Of a DNA stretch of 28,333 bases, positions 23,987-26,657 are shown in pieces. Every line of letters starts with the position of its first letter. Position 1 is the stretch's first letter. This stretch comes from a virus: the IMG/VR virus record IMGVR_UViG_3300044949_000170, positions 1 through 28,333 of that record. One strand, given 5' to 3'. The notes under the pieces were generated by a model, which saw only the letters and a list, made by a program, of their open reading frames with translations, was not told the origin of the DNA and searched no databases. The translations under genes were made by a program, and so were the position numbers.

Positions 23987-24156
23987 TGGAAAATAACCAC
24001 CAAGCAGACCAATCAACAATCGTATCAGTAATTAGTGCTATTTTAAGCCTATCGGATATTCAACCGCTATTCACATTGATTGCAAGTTTGGTGGCTATTA
24101 TTTCCGGTCTTATGGCTATCCGTTACTATTACAAAATGACTAAAAAGCTTAAATGA
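23986..24156 (+). CDS. Small membrane protein, 56 aa (holin candidate)
   Basis: An ORF starting ATG 23986 (TAATG with the previous stop) and ending TGA 24154-24156, overlapping the next ATG. The first 20 residues are polar, then there is one long hydrophobic helix (PLFTLIASLVAIISGLMAIR) and a basic end (YYYKMTKKLK). A short protein of this shape at the head of a lysis operon could be a pinholin-like or antiholin protein. The weakly hydrophobic N-terminal segment ISAILSLSDI could be a second, surface helix. I have no family match. Confidence 0.65.
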   Translation: MENNHQADQSTIVSVISAILSLSDIQPLFTLIASLVAIISGLMAIRYYYKMTKKLK

Positions 24157-24584
24157 GATTAATTTTTTTAGCCTTATTACTTACTTCGTGTGCTTCAGTA
24201 AAGAAGGCATCGGAGCGATTAGATAGCACTGTTGTCAAAACATTTGATAGTGTGCGTGTGGTTGTTTTTGATAGTGTTACCAAAGTAGTAGAAAAGGAAG
24301 AGTATTTTACCAAGACAATAACTTACTACGATACTTTGTGGGTTACTAAGGATAGTATGATTACAATTCCTAAGTACACGGAGACCTACACAAGAGGCAC
24401 AAAAGAGAAACAAACGGATAGTAAGCAGACCAAGACGGACTCAATGGCTCTCAGTCGCACAGAAAGTACCCAAATTTCGAAGATAACTAAAACTAAGGAT
24501 AAGTCCTTTAGCGAATTTTATAAGGCTCTAATTGCGCTTATATTGATAATTACGCTAATCTTATTCTTTTGGAAAAGGAAATAA
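24153..24584 (+). CDS. Unimolecular spanin-like lipoprotein
   Basis: A 143-aa protein with both ends membrane-bound. The N-terminal signal (MRLIFLALLLTSC) has the lipobox LTSC with C13 as the lipidated residue, so the N-terminus should be anchored to the outer membrane. Residues about 125-140 (ALIALILIITLILFFW) are a C-terminal inner-membrane helix with a basic KRK end. The periplasmic middle is Thr/Ser/Val/Lys-rich, with alternating beta-like strands (VVKTFDSVRVVVFDSV). This is the topology of T1 gp11 u-spanin, which fuses the two membranes after the endolysin degrades the wall. There is no two-gene Rz/Rz1 arrangement. It overlaps the small membrane protein by four bases and ends one base before the holin. 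Confidence 0.78.
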   Translation: MRLIFLALLLTSCASVKKASERLDSTVVKTFDSVRVVVFDSVTKVVEKEEYFTKTITYYDTLWVTKDSMITIPKYTETYTRGTKEKQTDSKQTKTDSMALSRTESTQISKITKTKDKSFSEFYKALIALILIITLILFFWKRK

Positions 24585-24585
24585 T

Positions 24586-24921
24586 TTGGACAAGTTAATA
24601 AATAGCTTCATCAATGGGGGGTGGGTAGTTTTGCTTATTGGTGCAGCAGGTATGGTAGCAAGGCTTGTTACAACTAATGAAGAGCAATCTATTAGAGATA
24701 TCTTTAAAAAAATGATAAGTTCTATGATTGCATCTCTTATTGCTTGGTTTATTATGGAGCAGTTTGAAGTTGAGTCGATGTACAAGGCTATCGCTTATGG
24801 CTTAGTTGGTTTAAATAGCCCTGAGATAATACAAGGGGTATTAAAAATAAGTAGTCAATTTGCAGCAGACCCTATGTCTTTTATGAAAAAAGAACAACCA
24901 AAACCAAAACGAAAACGATGA
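24586..24921 (+). CDS. Holin (LydA-like, PF16083-type), TTG start
   Basis: A 111-aa protein starting at TTG 24586, one base after the u-spanin stop. It shows hydrophobic stretches GGWVVLLIGAAGMVARLV (residues 11-28), MIASLIAWFIMEQF (about 47-60) and MYKAIAYGLVGLNSPEIIQG (about 65-84), then an amphipathic helix and a basic Lys/Arg-Pro tail (KKEQPKPKRKR). This pattern matches LydA-type class holins of tailed phages: GAAG-type turn in the first helix and a Gly-Leu-rich last helix. It would form the inner-membrane lesion releasing the endolysin. A second holin candidate is at 26439. Which one acts as holin and which as antiholin cannot be told. Confidence 0.75.
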   Translation: MDKLINSFINGGWVVLLIGAAGMVARLVTTNEEQSIRDIFKKMISSMIASLIAWFIMEQFEVESMYKAIAYGLVGLNSPEIIQGVLKISSQFAADPMSFMKKEQPKPKRKR

Positions 24922-25550
24922 AAAACACATTACTAATTATTCTTACTGCAATAATTTTGACTATTGCAGGGTTTGGTAAATATGTAGAATACACAATTAA
25001 AAAGACGGCAACAAGCGTTTACCAAGATAGATTAGTACCGCAACCTTATTTGAGCCGCAAATTTGATTATTACGGCTCAGCAATACAAGACCAAATTAAA
25101 GTTATTAAAGGCGGCAAAATCGATTTAGTTGCTATCCAAAAAGAAAAGGAGATTACAGATACAATGTGGGCTGCTTACTTAAAGACATTCCAAACACCAG
25201 AAGAGAAAGAAGTAAGCGATAAAGCGCAAATGTATATTACCGAAGCTGATAATTATTTTGCTCAAATATCGGCAGACGGCATAGTTAATGATGAGGAAGC
25301 CAAAGAAATGGATAAAAAGATTTATCCTGTTTTAGAGTATGTGAACGATTTAATAGACATTCAAACAACAATAGGGGCAAAGGAAACCAAAGGAATGATA
25401 ACCTTGCTTAACAAGTTCTCTCATTTTATGATAGGTGCTATTGCTTTAGCTATTGCTTTACTTGGTTCTATTGTATATGATATGTTTAAAAAGAAGAAAG
25501 TTGTAAAAAAGCCTATCAAAAAAGCTGCTACTAAAAAGAAAAAGAAATGA
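24918..25550 (+). CDS. Orphan four-helix-bundle (4HB_MCP-type) sensor protein
   Basis: A 210-aa membrane protein shaped like the sensing half of a chemoreceptor. Residues 4-20 (TLLIILTAIILTIAGFG) are a signal anchor. Residues 22-165 are a helical periplasmic domain that starts TATSVYQDRLVPQPYLSRKF, closely matching the YxDRLVP entry of the 4HB_MCP ligand-binding domain, and continues with helices such as EEKEVSDKAQMYITEADNYF and the acidic loop ISADGIVNDEEAKEM. Residues 170-190 (FMIGAIALAIALLGSIVYDM) are a second membrane helix. Only a 20-residue tail with 13 lysines follows, so HAMP and signalling domains are absent. Overlaps of four bases with the holin and with the next gene place it inside the lysis operon, suggesting a timing sensor or antiholin-like regulator. 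That role is inference. Confidence 0.72.
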   Translation: MKNTLLIILTAIILTIAGFGKYVEYTIKKTATSVYQDRLVPQPYLSRKFDYYGSAIQDQIKVIKGGKIDLVAIQKEKEITDTMWAAYLKTFQTPEEKEVSDKAQMYITEADNYFAQISADGIVNDEEAKEMDKKIYPVLEYVNDLIDIQTTIGAKETKGMITLLNKFSHFMIGAIALAIALLGSIVYDMFKKKKVVKKPIKKAATKKKKK

Positions 25551-25981
25551 GATTAATAGCAATAATATGCTTGTTTTTTGCGTTAAAAGGCAATGCTCAA
25601 TATTATGTTATGGCTGCTCCAAACGTAGCTTTTAACACACCTTTAAACGATACTAAAAATTTATTAGGTGGAACTATTGAGGTTGGAAAGTATTTTGGCA
25701 AAACGGCAGTAGGTATCAATAGCGGTTGGTGGACTTATGATAGTAAAGATTTTTACCAAGAAATAATGGCTACGTTCCCTATATATGAAAACTTTAGCGT
25801 AAGTGCTGCGGTAGGATATTTTTACCATTATAAAGATATAACAATGGAATACGATTTTAATTACACTATTCCATTAAAAAAAGATTATTCATTTGTTTTA
25901 AGTTACGGAGCGCAAAGTGCCTTTGGTGGAACTTTTGGTGCGTATTCAATCGGTATTAATAAAGATTTTAAAATAAAATAA
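25547..25981 (+). CDS. Small outer-membrane beta-barrel-like protein
   Basis: A 144-aa exported protein with a clear signal peptide: MRLIAIICLFFALKGNAQ with cleavage after A17, a Bacteroidetes-style NA|Q site. The mature part alternates aromatic and glycine residues in beta strands: YYVMAAPNVAFNTPL, LLGGTIEVGKYFGKTAVGI, FSVSAAVGYFYHYK, ITMEYDFNYTIPL, SFVLSYGAQSAFGG and GAYSIGINKDFKIK. About eight amphipathic strands fit a small outer-membrane barrel. The C-terminal residue is Lys, not Phe, so barrel insertion by Bam is not certain. It lies between the sensor and the endolysin, overlapping the former by four bases and one base before the latter. It could weaken the outer membrane, block superinfection or support spanin function. 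Confidence 0.68.
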   Translation: MRLIAIICLFFALKGNAQYYVMAAPNVAFNTPLNDTKNLLGGTIEVGKYFGKTAVGINSGWWTYDSKDFYQEIMATFPIYENFSVSAAVGYFYHYKDITMEYDFNYTIPLKKDYSFVLSYGAQSAFGGTFGAYSIGINKDFKIK

Positions 25982-25982
25982 A

Positions 25983-26429
25983 ATGCAATTAAACGAGAAA
26001 GGGAAAGACCTAATTAAATTCTACGAAGGCTGCAAATTAGTGGCTTACAAATGCAGTGCTGCAAAAGATACAATCGGCTACGGGAATACTTTTTTTGAAG
26101 ATGGTAAACCTGTAAAGCCTGGCGATAAGATTACGCAAGAAAGAGCCAATGAGTTATTTGAGATTATAGCTAAAGAGTTTGCTGATAAGGTTGCTCCATT
26201 GGTTAAAAGTTCAGTTACACCTAATCAGTTCGCTGCTCTTACAAGCTTTGCCTATAACGCAGGTATCGGAAACCTAAAGAGTTCTACTTTACTAAAGAAG
26301 GTAAACGCTAACCCTAATGACCCTTCAATAGCTTTAGAGTTTGCTAAGTGGGATAAAGCAGGTGGCAAAGTTCTTGCAGGTCTTACAAAGCGTAGAGCAT
26401 CTGAGTCAAAATTATACTTCACACCTTAA
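25983..26429 (+). CDS. Endolysin, GH24 lysozyme (T4/P22 type)
   Basis: A 148-aa muramidase that cleaves the peptidoglycan MurNAc-GlcNAc bond. The catalytic signature is present: E15 in FYEGCKLVAY, then C24 nine residues later and T30 fifteen residues later, followed by GYGNT. This is the E-8-[D/C]-5-T triad, with Cys in place of the T4 Asp, as in several lambdoid GH24 enzymes. The conserved core follows: VTPNQFAALTSFAYNAGIGN near residues 80-99, and the C-terminal GLTKRRASESKLY. There is no signal peptide, so export depends on the holin. The length is standard. Confidence 0.95.
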   Translation: MQLNEKGKDLIKFYEGCKLVAYKCSAAKDTIGYGNTFFEDGKPVKPGDKITQERANELFEIIAKEFADKVAPLVKSSVTPNQFAALTSFAYNAGIGNLKSSTLLKKVNANPNDPSIALEFAKWDKAGGKVLAGLTKRRASESKLYFTP

Positions 26430-26438
26430 ATATAAAAT

Positions 26439-26657
26439 ATGAAATGGTTAGCCAATTTATTATCAGACGAAAGAGGTAGCGTGTCTACAAAGCGAGTGAT
26501 TGCTTTACTATCGGCTTTGTTTATCTGTGTTACCTTATTAGCTAATAGCTTCACGCATCAAGAGATTGCCCCTTCGGATAAACTTGTAGATGCCGTAATG
26601 GTTATTTGCATAGCTGCAATGGGTACTACTACAATAGATAAATTCAGCCAAAAATAA
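26439..26657 (+). CDS. Two-TM membrane protein, holin-like, 72 aa
   Basis: A 72-aa protein with a polar cytoplasmic N-terminus (MKWLANLLSDERGSVSTKR), a first hydrophobic helix (VIALLSALFICVTLLANSF), a short loop (HQEIAPSDK) and a second helix (LVDAVMVICIAAMGTTTIDK). The pattern DERGxVSxKR followed by two helices is one I recall in many Bacteroidetes phages beside the lysozyme gene. It is likely a second holin or an antiholin partner of the LydA-like protein. It follows the endolysin by nine bases and precedes the exonuclease by three. No RBS is visible. Confidence 0.7.
   Translation: MKWLANLLSDERGSVSTKRVIALLSALFICVTLLANSFTHQEIAPSDKLVDAVMVICIAAMGTTTIDKFSQK

Follow-up and report, generated by a model that had tools for sequence, protein, structure and literature searches.

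A 4HB receptor-type protein encoded next to the holin of uncultured phages, a candidate regulator of lysis timing

The window that we analysed, 28,333 bases long, is an IMG/VR virus record. On its + strand, an open reading frame with an ATG start (24918-25550) codes for a protein of 210 aa, here called the 4HB protein, whose assignment as a 4HB partner of the holin draws on the reading frame, its PF12729 relatives, the AlphaFold bundle and PDB fold matches. Hydropathy places two transmembrane segments in it, TM1 at residues 5-23 (24930-24986) and TM2 at residues 168-186 (25419-25475). Between them lies a four-helix bundle, residues 24-167 (24987-25418), that was outlined from the AlphaFold model and hydropathy and is predicted to be periplasmic. 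Three short motifs stand out in the bundle: YQDRLVP at residues 35-41, FDYYG at residues 49-53 (25062-25076) and LIDIQTTIG at residues 145-153 (25350-25376), the last being a helix-4 signature common to chromosomal solo 4HB proteins. The frame ends after a 24-residue tail behind TM2 (residues 187-210; 25476-25547), polybasic by its Lys/Arg counts and predicted to be cytoplasmic; lysine makes up 13 of the 20 C-terminal residues, and the window protein has no HAMP or MCP signalling domain. Congruently, an earlier note on this DNA had described a frame with TM1, a helical domain, TM2 and 13 lysines in 20 residues, all of which we found by frame analysis, hydropathy and counting. It had also taken YQDRLVP for a 4HB pattern, and chromosomal Bacteroidota 4HB proteins do carry this motif or close variants of it.

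Directly upstream lies the holin gene (24586-24921, + strand, TTG start, 111 aa). Its identity rests on profile matches to PHROG 6384 (E 5.5e-8) and, below the cut-off, to the LydA-type family PF16083 (E 1.7e-4). Downstream, on the + strand at 25547-25981, is the usual third member of the cassette, a protein with a signal peptide that AlphaFold models as an 8-stranded barrel; its fold matches resemble OmpX and the OprF N-domain, pointing to an outer-membrane type, and it has no Pfam or PHROG match. The GH24 lysozyme that follows (25983-26429, + strand; PF00959, E 3.1e-39) is the endolysin of this phage. The 4HB gene overlaps both the holin gene and the barrel gene by four bases, so that the overlaps and the lysis-cassette setting are as the earlier note had stated them. 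Two small membrane proteins complete the picture on the same strand. A lipobox (LLTSC) near the N-terminus and a C-terminal TM at residues 122-140 make the product of 24153-24584 look like a unimolecular spanin; relatives of this lipoprotein are found at L071:4909-5346 and L094:1488-1943. The other, at 26439-26657, is a 72-aa protein with two TMs that may be an additional holin or, in place of 24586-24921, the real one; in most relatives, small TM proteins like it lie close to the holin or the endolysin.

The 4HB gene recurs in 62 IMG/VR loci, with 78-100% identity in nearly all of them, and its dN/dS of 0.04-0.08 (pairs with defined dS) indicates strong purifying selection; on both grounds it is not a chance reading frame. 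Invariant residues of the protein are found both in the TMs and in the bundle, which suggests that it is more than a membrane anchor.

We then looked at the family to which the protein belongs. Its top Pfam match is PF12729 (4HB_MCP_1), with 16.7 bits against a cut-off of 27 and an E-value of 0.0056. The same family was matched by 20 of 21 close relatives (best 1.6e-5), and five full-length phage homologues, ~40% identical to the window protein, pass the 27-bit cut-off with 46.4, 38, 36, 32.9 and 32.1 bits, which settles the assignment to the 4HB family. Weak matches to PrgI (in the tail) and DHOase stayed below the Pfam cut-offs, were inconsistent across the relatives and were discarded, and no PHROG matched the 4HB family convincingly. 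The AlphaFold model, built on a 21-row alignment, has helices at residues 2-39, 41-62, 70-88, 94-117 and 125-195 with a pLDDT of 84, and together with the two TM segments it presents the TM-flanked, putatively periplasmic four-helix bundle of PF12729. A PDB search by sequence returned chance matches only. By fold, the best PDB matches (all with a Foldseek E >0.001) include the chemoreceptor ligand-binding domains 8bsa, Tar (2lig; TM 0.65, 3.1 A) and MCP2201, as well as the sensor kinases KinB and NarQ; the Borrelia OspC bundle likewise scores in Foldseek. The phage protein thus shares its fold, its TM-flanked topology and its family profile with the 4HB domains of chemoreceptors such as Tar and MCP2201, but differs from them in lacking the HAMP and MCP signalling module and in sitting in a phage lysis cassette. 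The 4HB fold proposed in the earlier note is therefore borne out by the model, the chemoreceptor fold matches, the five homologues above the cut-off and the match to a solo-protein HMM described below. The best viral fold match was BFVD A0A8S5L4P1, named as a 4HB MCP domain and derived from an ssRNA phage record; here the fold may have been captured a second time, or the contig may be misassigned.

In 62 close viral relatives, the gene order is holin-4HB-barrel wherever the contig reaches far enough. The same linkage between holin and 4HB was recovered from searches started at the 4HB protein, the holin, the barrel or a broad 4HB alignment, each of which covered its best 80 loci (for the broad 4HB alignment, the best 80 of 133 relatives). 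Seventeen loci carried distant holins or barrels; 16 hold a complete divergent 4HB protein, detected by the 4HB HMM, directly behind the holin, and the remaining one, L247, is a fragment that ends ~500 bases after the holin. All loci pooled yielded 61 distinct complete phage 4HB proteins, with identities to the window protein down to 32% and on contigs of about 4 to 322 kb. Among the best 80 loci per search, the coupling to a holin gene that is expected of an antiholin was found in all 59 distinct proteins with sufficient upstream DNA: the holin is directly upstream in 59/59, with gaps of −4 (42 cases), +4 (8), −1 (4), +1 (3) or +5 (2) bases. Conversely, every holin frame with room behind it was followed by a 4HB gene (307/307, a count over redundant loci, again from the best 80 per search). 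The pair looks obligate and, apparently, one-to-one. Homologues lying mostly away from lysis genes, which the earlier note had named as evidence against a lysis role, were not seen; all those examined are beside a holin. A tblastn search of INPHARED with the window 4HB protein, two distant 4HB relatives and two holins gave no matches, and the barrel gave just two chance-level ones, in a DNA polymerase gene. The search therefore revealed no annotated relative from a cultured phage, and the relatives are all uncultured viruses.

To trace the origin of the domain we turned to bacterial genomes. At E 1e-6, 103 of 395 Bacteroidota genomes encode PF12729 proteins, several of which are short and have no output domain. 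These chromosomal solo 4HB proteins (L157:6024-6707, L158:5611-6312, L161:5795-6460, L163:5873-6538 and L170-L173) are about 210-235 aa long and resemble the phage proteins in TM1, DRL(V/I)P, the four-helix domain, the helix-4 motif L-x2-[ILVM]-Q-x3-G, TM2 and the missing output domain. They differ in having no FDY[YF]G motif, a short C-terminus with few K/R and no lysis neighbours: no recognisable lysis genes were seen beside them, and their neighbours recur almost only within two locus pairs, L161/L163 and L170/L173, which are seemingly closely related. An HMM built from 11 of the solo proteins matched the window protein over residues 5-197 with 41.6 bits (E 2e-11 at Z=4000). In the reverse direction, the phage 4HB profile found six places in the 395 Bacteroidota genomes, five of which were PF12729 places in receptor-length or solo open frames. 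A pattern scan of genome contigs with the 4HB protein turned up no relative, and PHROG 6384 had merely five weak, uninformative matches in Bacteroidota genomes.

A tree of 55 rows placed the phage 4HB proteins in one clade (100/100) on a long branch, adjoining the chromosomal Bacteroidota solo proteins (93/80) and, together with them, apart from nearly all MCP-type domains. The helix-4 signature, as [LIG]-x2-[ILVM]-Q-x3-G, follows the same division: it is present in 61/61 phage and 11/11 solo proteins and in 1/27 MCP/HK proteins, 0/9 other short 4HB proteins and 3/81 background sequences. Two features mark the phage proteins alone, FDY[YF]G (61/61 against 0/38 bacterial relatives) and a polybasic tail with at least 10 K/R within the 30 C-terminal residues, carried by all 61 and absent from the bacterial relatives. 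Since the tree places the phage clade beside solo proteins that likewise have no output domain, the absence of a signalling domain is probably ancestral, inherited from the solo 4HB lineage rather than lost in the phage. The earlier note was right that the protein has none, but this is no peculiarity of the phage. The tree also speaks against a fragment of an MCP, as the phage proteins group with the solo ones instead. With lysozyme relatives mostly in Bacteroidota as well, the host of this phage is probably a member of that phylum.

Taken together, we propose that the product of the 4HB gene is a membrane protein dedicated to the neighbouring holin, with the solo 4HB proteins as relatives, and most likely an antiholin-type regulator of lysis timing, a reading to which we give about an even chance. 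The protein would sit in the inner membrane with both ends inside (N-in/C-in) and the bundle in the periplasm. Its TM helices, its basic tail or both may contact the holin there and hold or tune holin assembly, and the bundle with its invariant FDY[YF]G would be the input end. At this end a ligand, some phage component or the barrel could act on the protein and, in the manner of a chemoreceptor, displace its TM helices, which would alter the moment of holin triggering. Regulation, sensing of a ligand or of superinfection and an effect on lysis time are inferred here, and ligand binding by the bundle is the least certain step. More tentatively, and with considerable doubt, the captured chemoreceptor-type domain may sense a small molecule or a phage-derived signal and gate its cognate holin directly, with no kinase or transcription step.

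The strongest competing explanation is that the 4HB protein is a co-holin or assembly subunit, a structural part of a two-component membrane lesion that senses nothing and whose bundle serves just for dimerisation. A complex of fixed ratio would fit the obligate one-to-one pairing and the translational overlap with the holin, and both proteins have basic C-terminal tails; yet the periplasmic domain is conserved, ~145 residues long and marked by invariant motifs, which goes beyond what a holin subunit would require, and the fold relatives are sensors. The constraint on the periplasmic domain makes this explanation somewhat less likely, and we regard it as rather unlikely, if serious.

The barrel allows another explanation, in which it forms an envelope module with the 4HB protein, acting for example in superinfection exclusion or in weakening the outer membrane, and the holin is linked merely as a late gene. 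In 54 of the 61 cases the barrel gene comes immediately after the 4HB gene, with a 4-base or 1-base overlap at the junction, and it is constrained as strongly as the 4HB gene. However, six of the cases lack the barrel and in a seventh it lies 406 nt away, whereas the holin was present in every case with sufficient upstream DNA, and we hold this reading to be improbable. The endolysin varies too: four unrelated families, GH24 in the window and GH19, M15 and Amidase_2 in relatives, were found near the holin-4HB pair, and in L374 and L380 no endolysin was recognised in the next genes shown. As the endolysin family varies and the barrel is sometimes absent or displaced, the constant partner is the holin. 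The earlier note had proposed to look for the gene next to holin and GH24 genes; the holin always adjoins the phage 4HB genes examined, but GH24 is not constant. The association is in fact stronger than had been supposed: the holin looks like an obligate neighbour, the barrel is a usual one, and neither link depends on the type of endolysin. A role as regulator of the endolysin was rejected, given that the endolysin family swaps while the 4HB-holin pair stays.

A decoy that forms mixed dimers with a host solo 4HB protein or chemoreceptor, and thereby blocks the host protein, would agree with the Bacteroidota solo proteins being the closest bacterial relatives. It leaves the obligate linkage to the holin unexplained and sits poorly with the long branch and phage-only motifs of the phage proteins, and we consider it quite improbable. 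Finally, a spanin that links the inner and outer membranes and disrupts the latter at lysis would also be an inner-membrane protein with a helical periplasmic part within a lysis cassette, but the topology disfavours it (two TMs and nothing to anchor it in the outer membrane, such as a lipobox), the spanin-like lipoprotein of the window is the product of another gene (24153-24584), and we attach hardly any probability to it.

Environmental control of lysis timing is known from a few phages such as T4, and each step of the proposed mechanism has a precedent. In T4, RI controls the holin T in the periplasm, where it binds the periplasmic domain of T, and it also works while membrane-bound (PMC11413866); it has a cleavable signal peptide (PMC8385771). 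Our working model for the 4HB protein resembles RI/T in pairing a membrane-targeted protein that has a periplasmic domain with a holin, but the 4HB protein keeps two TMs and the window holin has no large periplasmic domain. The antiholin LydB of phage P1 is encoded in one operon with LydA and has no predicted TM (PMC9025707). The likeness to P1 lies in the LydA-type holin and in an antiholin gene, here a candidate one, within the same operon; the differences are the two TMs of the phage 4HB protein and its 4HB domain, none being reported there for P1. GlnX of Corynebacterium glutamicum has no MCP module, and its 4HB bundles are proposed to pass their signal on through TM helices (PMC9769921). 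GlnX is similar in its periplasmic 4HB bundles and in lacking that module, and unlike the phage protein in having two bundles, a partner kinase and a role in metabolic rather than lysis control.

In full-text literature searches, with subscription papers mostly outside their scope, we found no description of the holin-4HB pairing, in concordance with the earlier note, which had taken it to be undescribed. What looks new here is the apparently obligate pairing and a candidate for a holin-linked regulator derived from a known sensor fold. If confirmed, it would be another structural solution to the control of lysis timing, with a 4HB receptor-type domain in place of RI, and would offer a clue to what the chromosomal solo 4HB proteins of Bacteroidota do. 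The module occurs in diverse uncultured phages, on contigs of up to 322 kb. In this large group, which probably infects Bacteroidota, lysis timing may be under the control of a borrowed bacterial sensor.

Finally, proteins with an N-terminal TM and a beta-strand-like C-terminal end were seen upstream of the holin at L097:5102-5647, L109:4976-5605 and L239:2383-2988. No spanin-like lipoprotein was seen in these loci, and the proteins are possibly another type of outer-membrane disruption protein.
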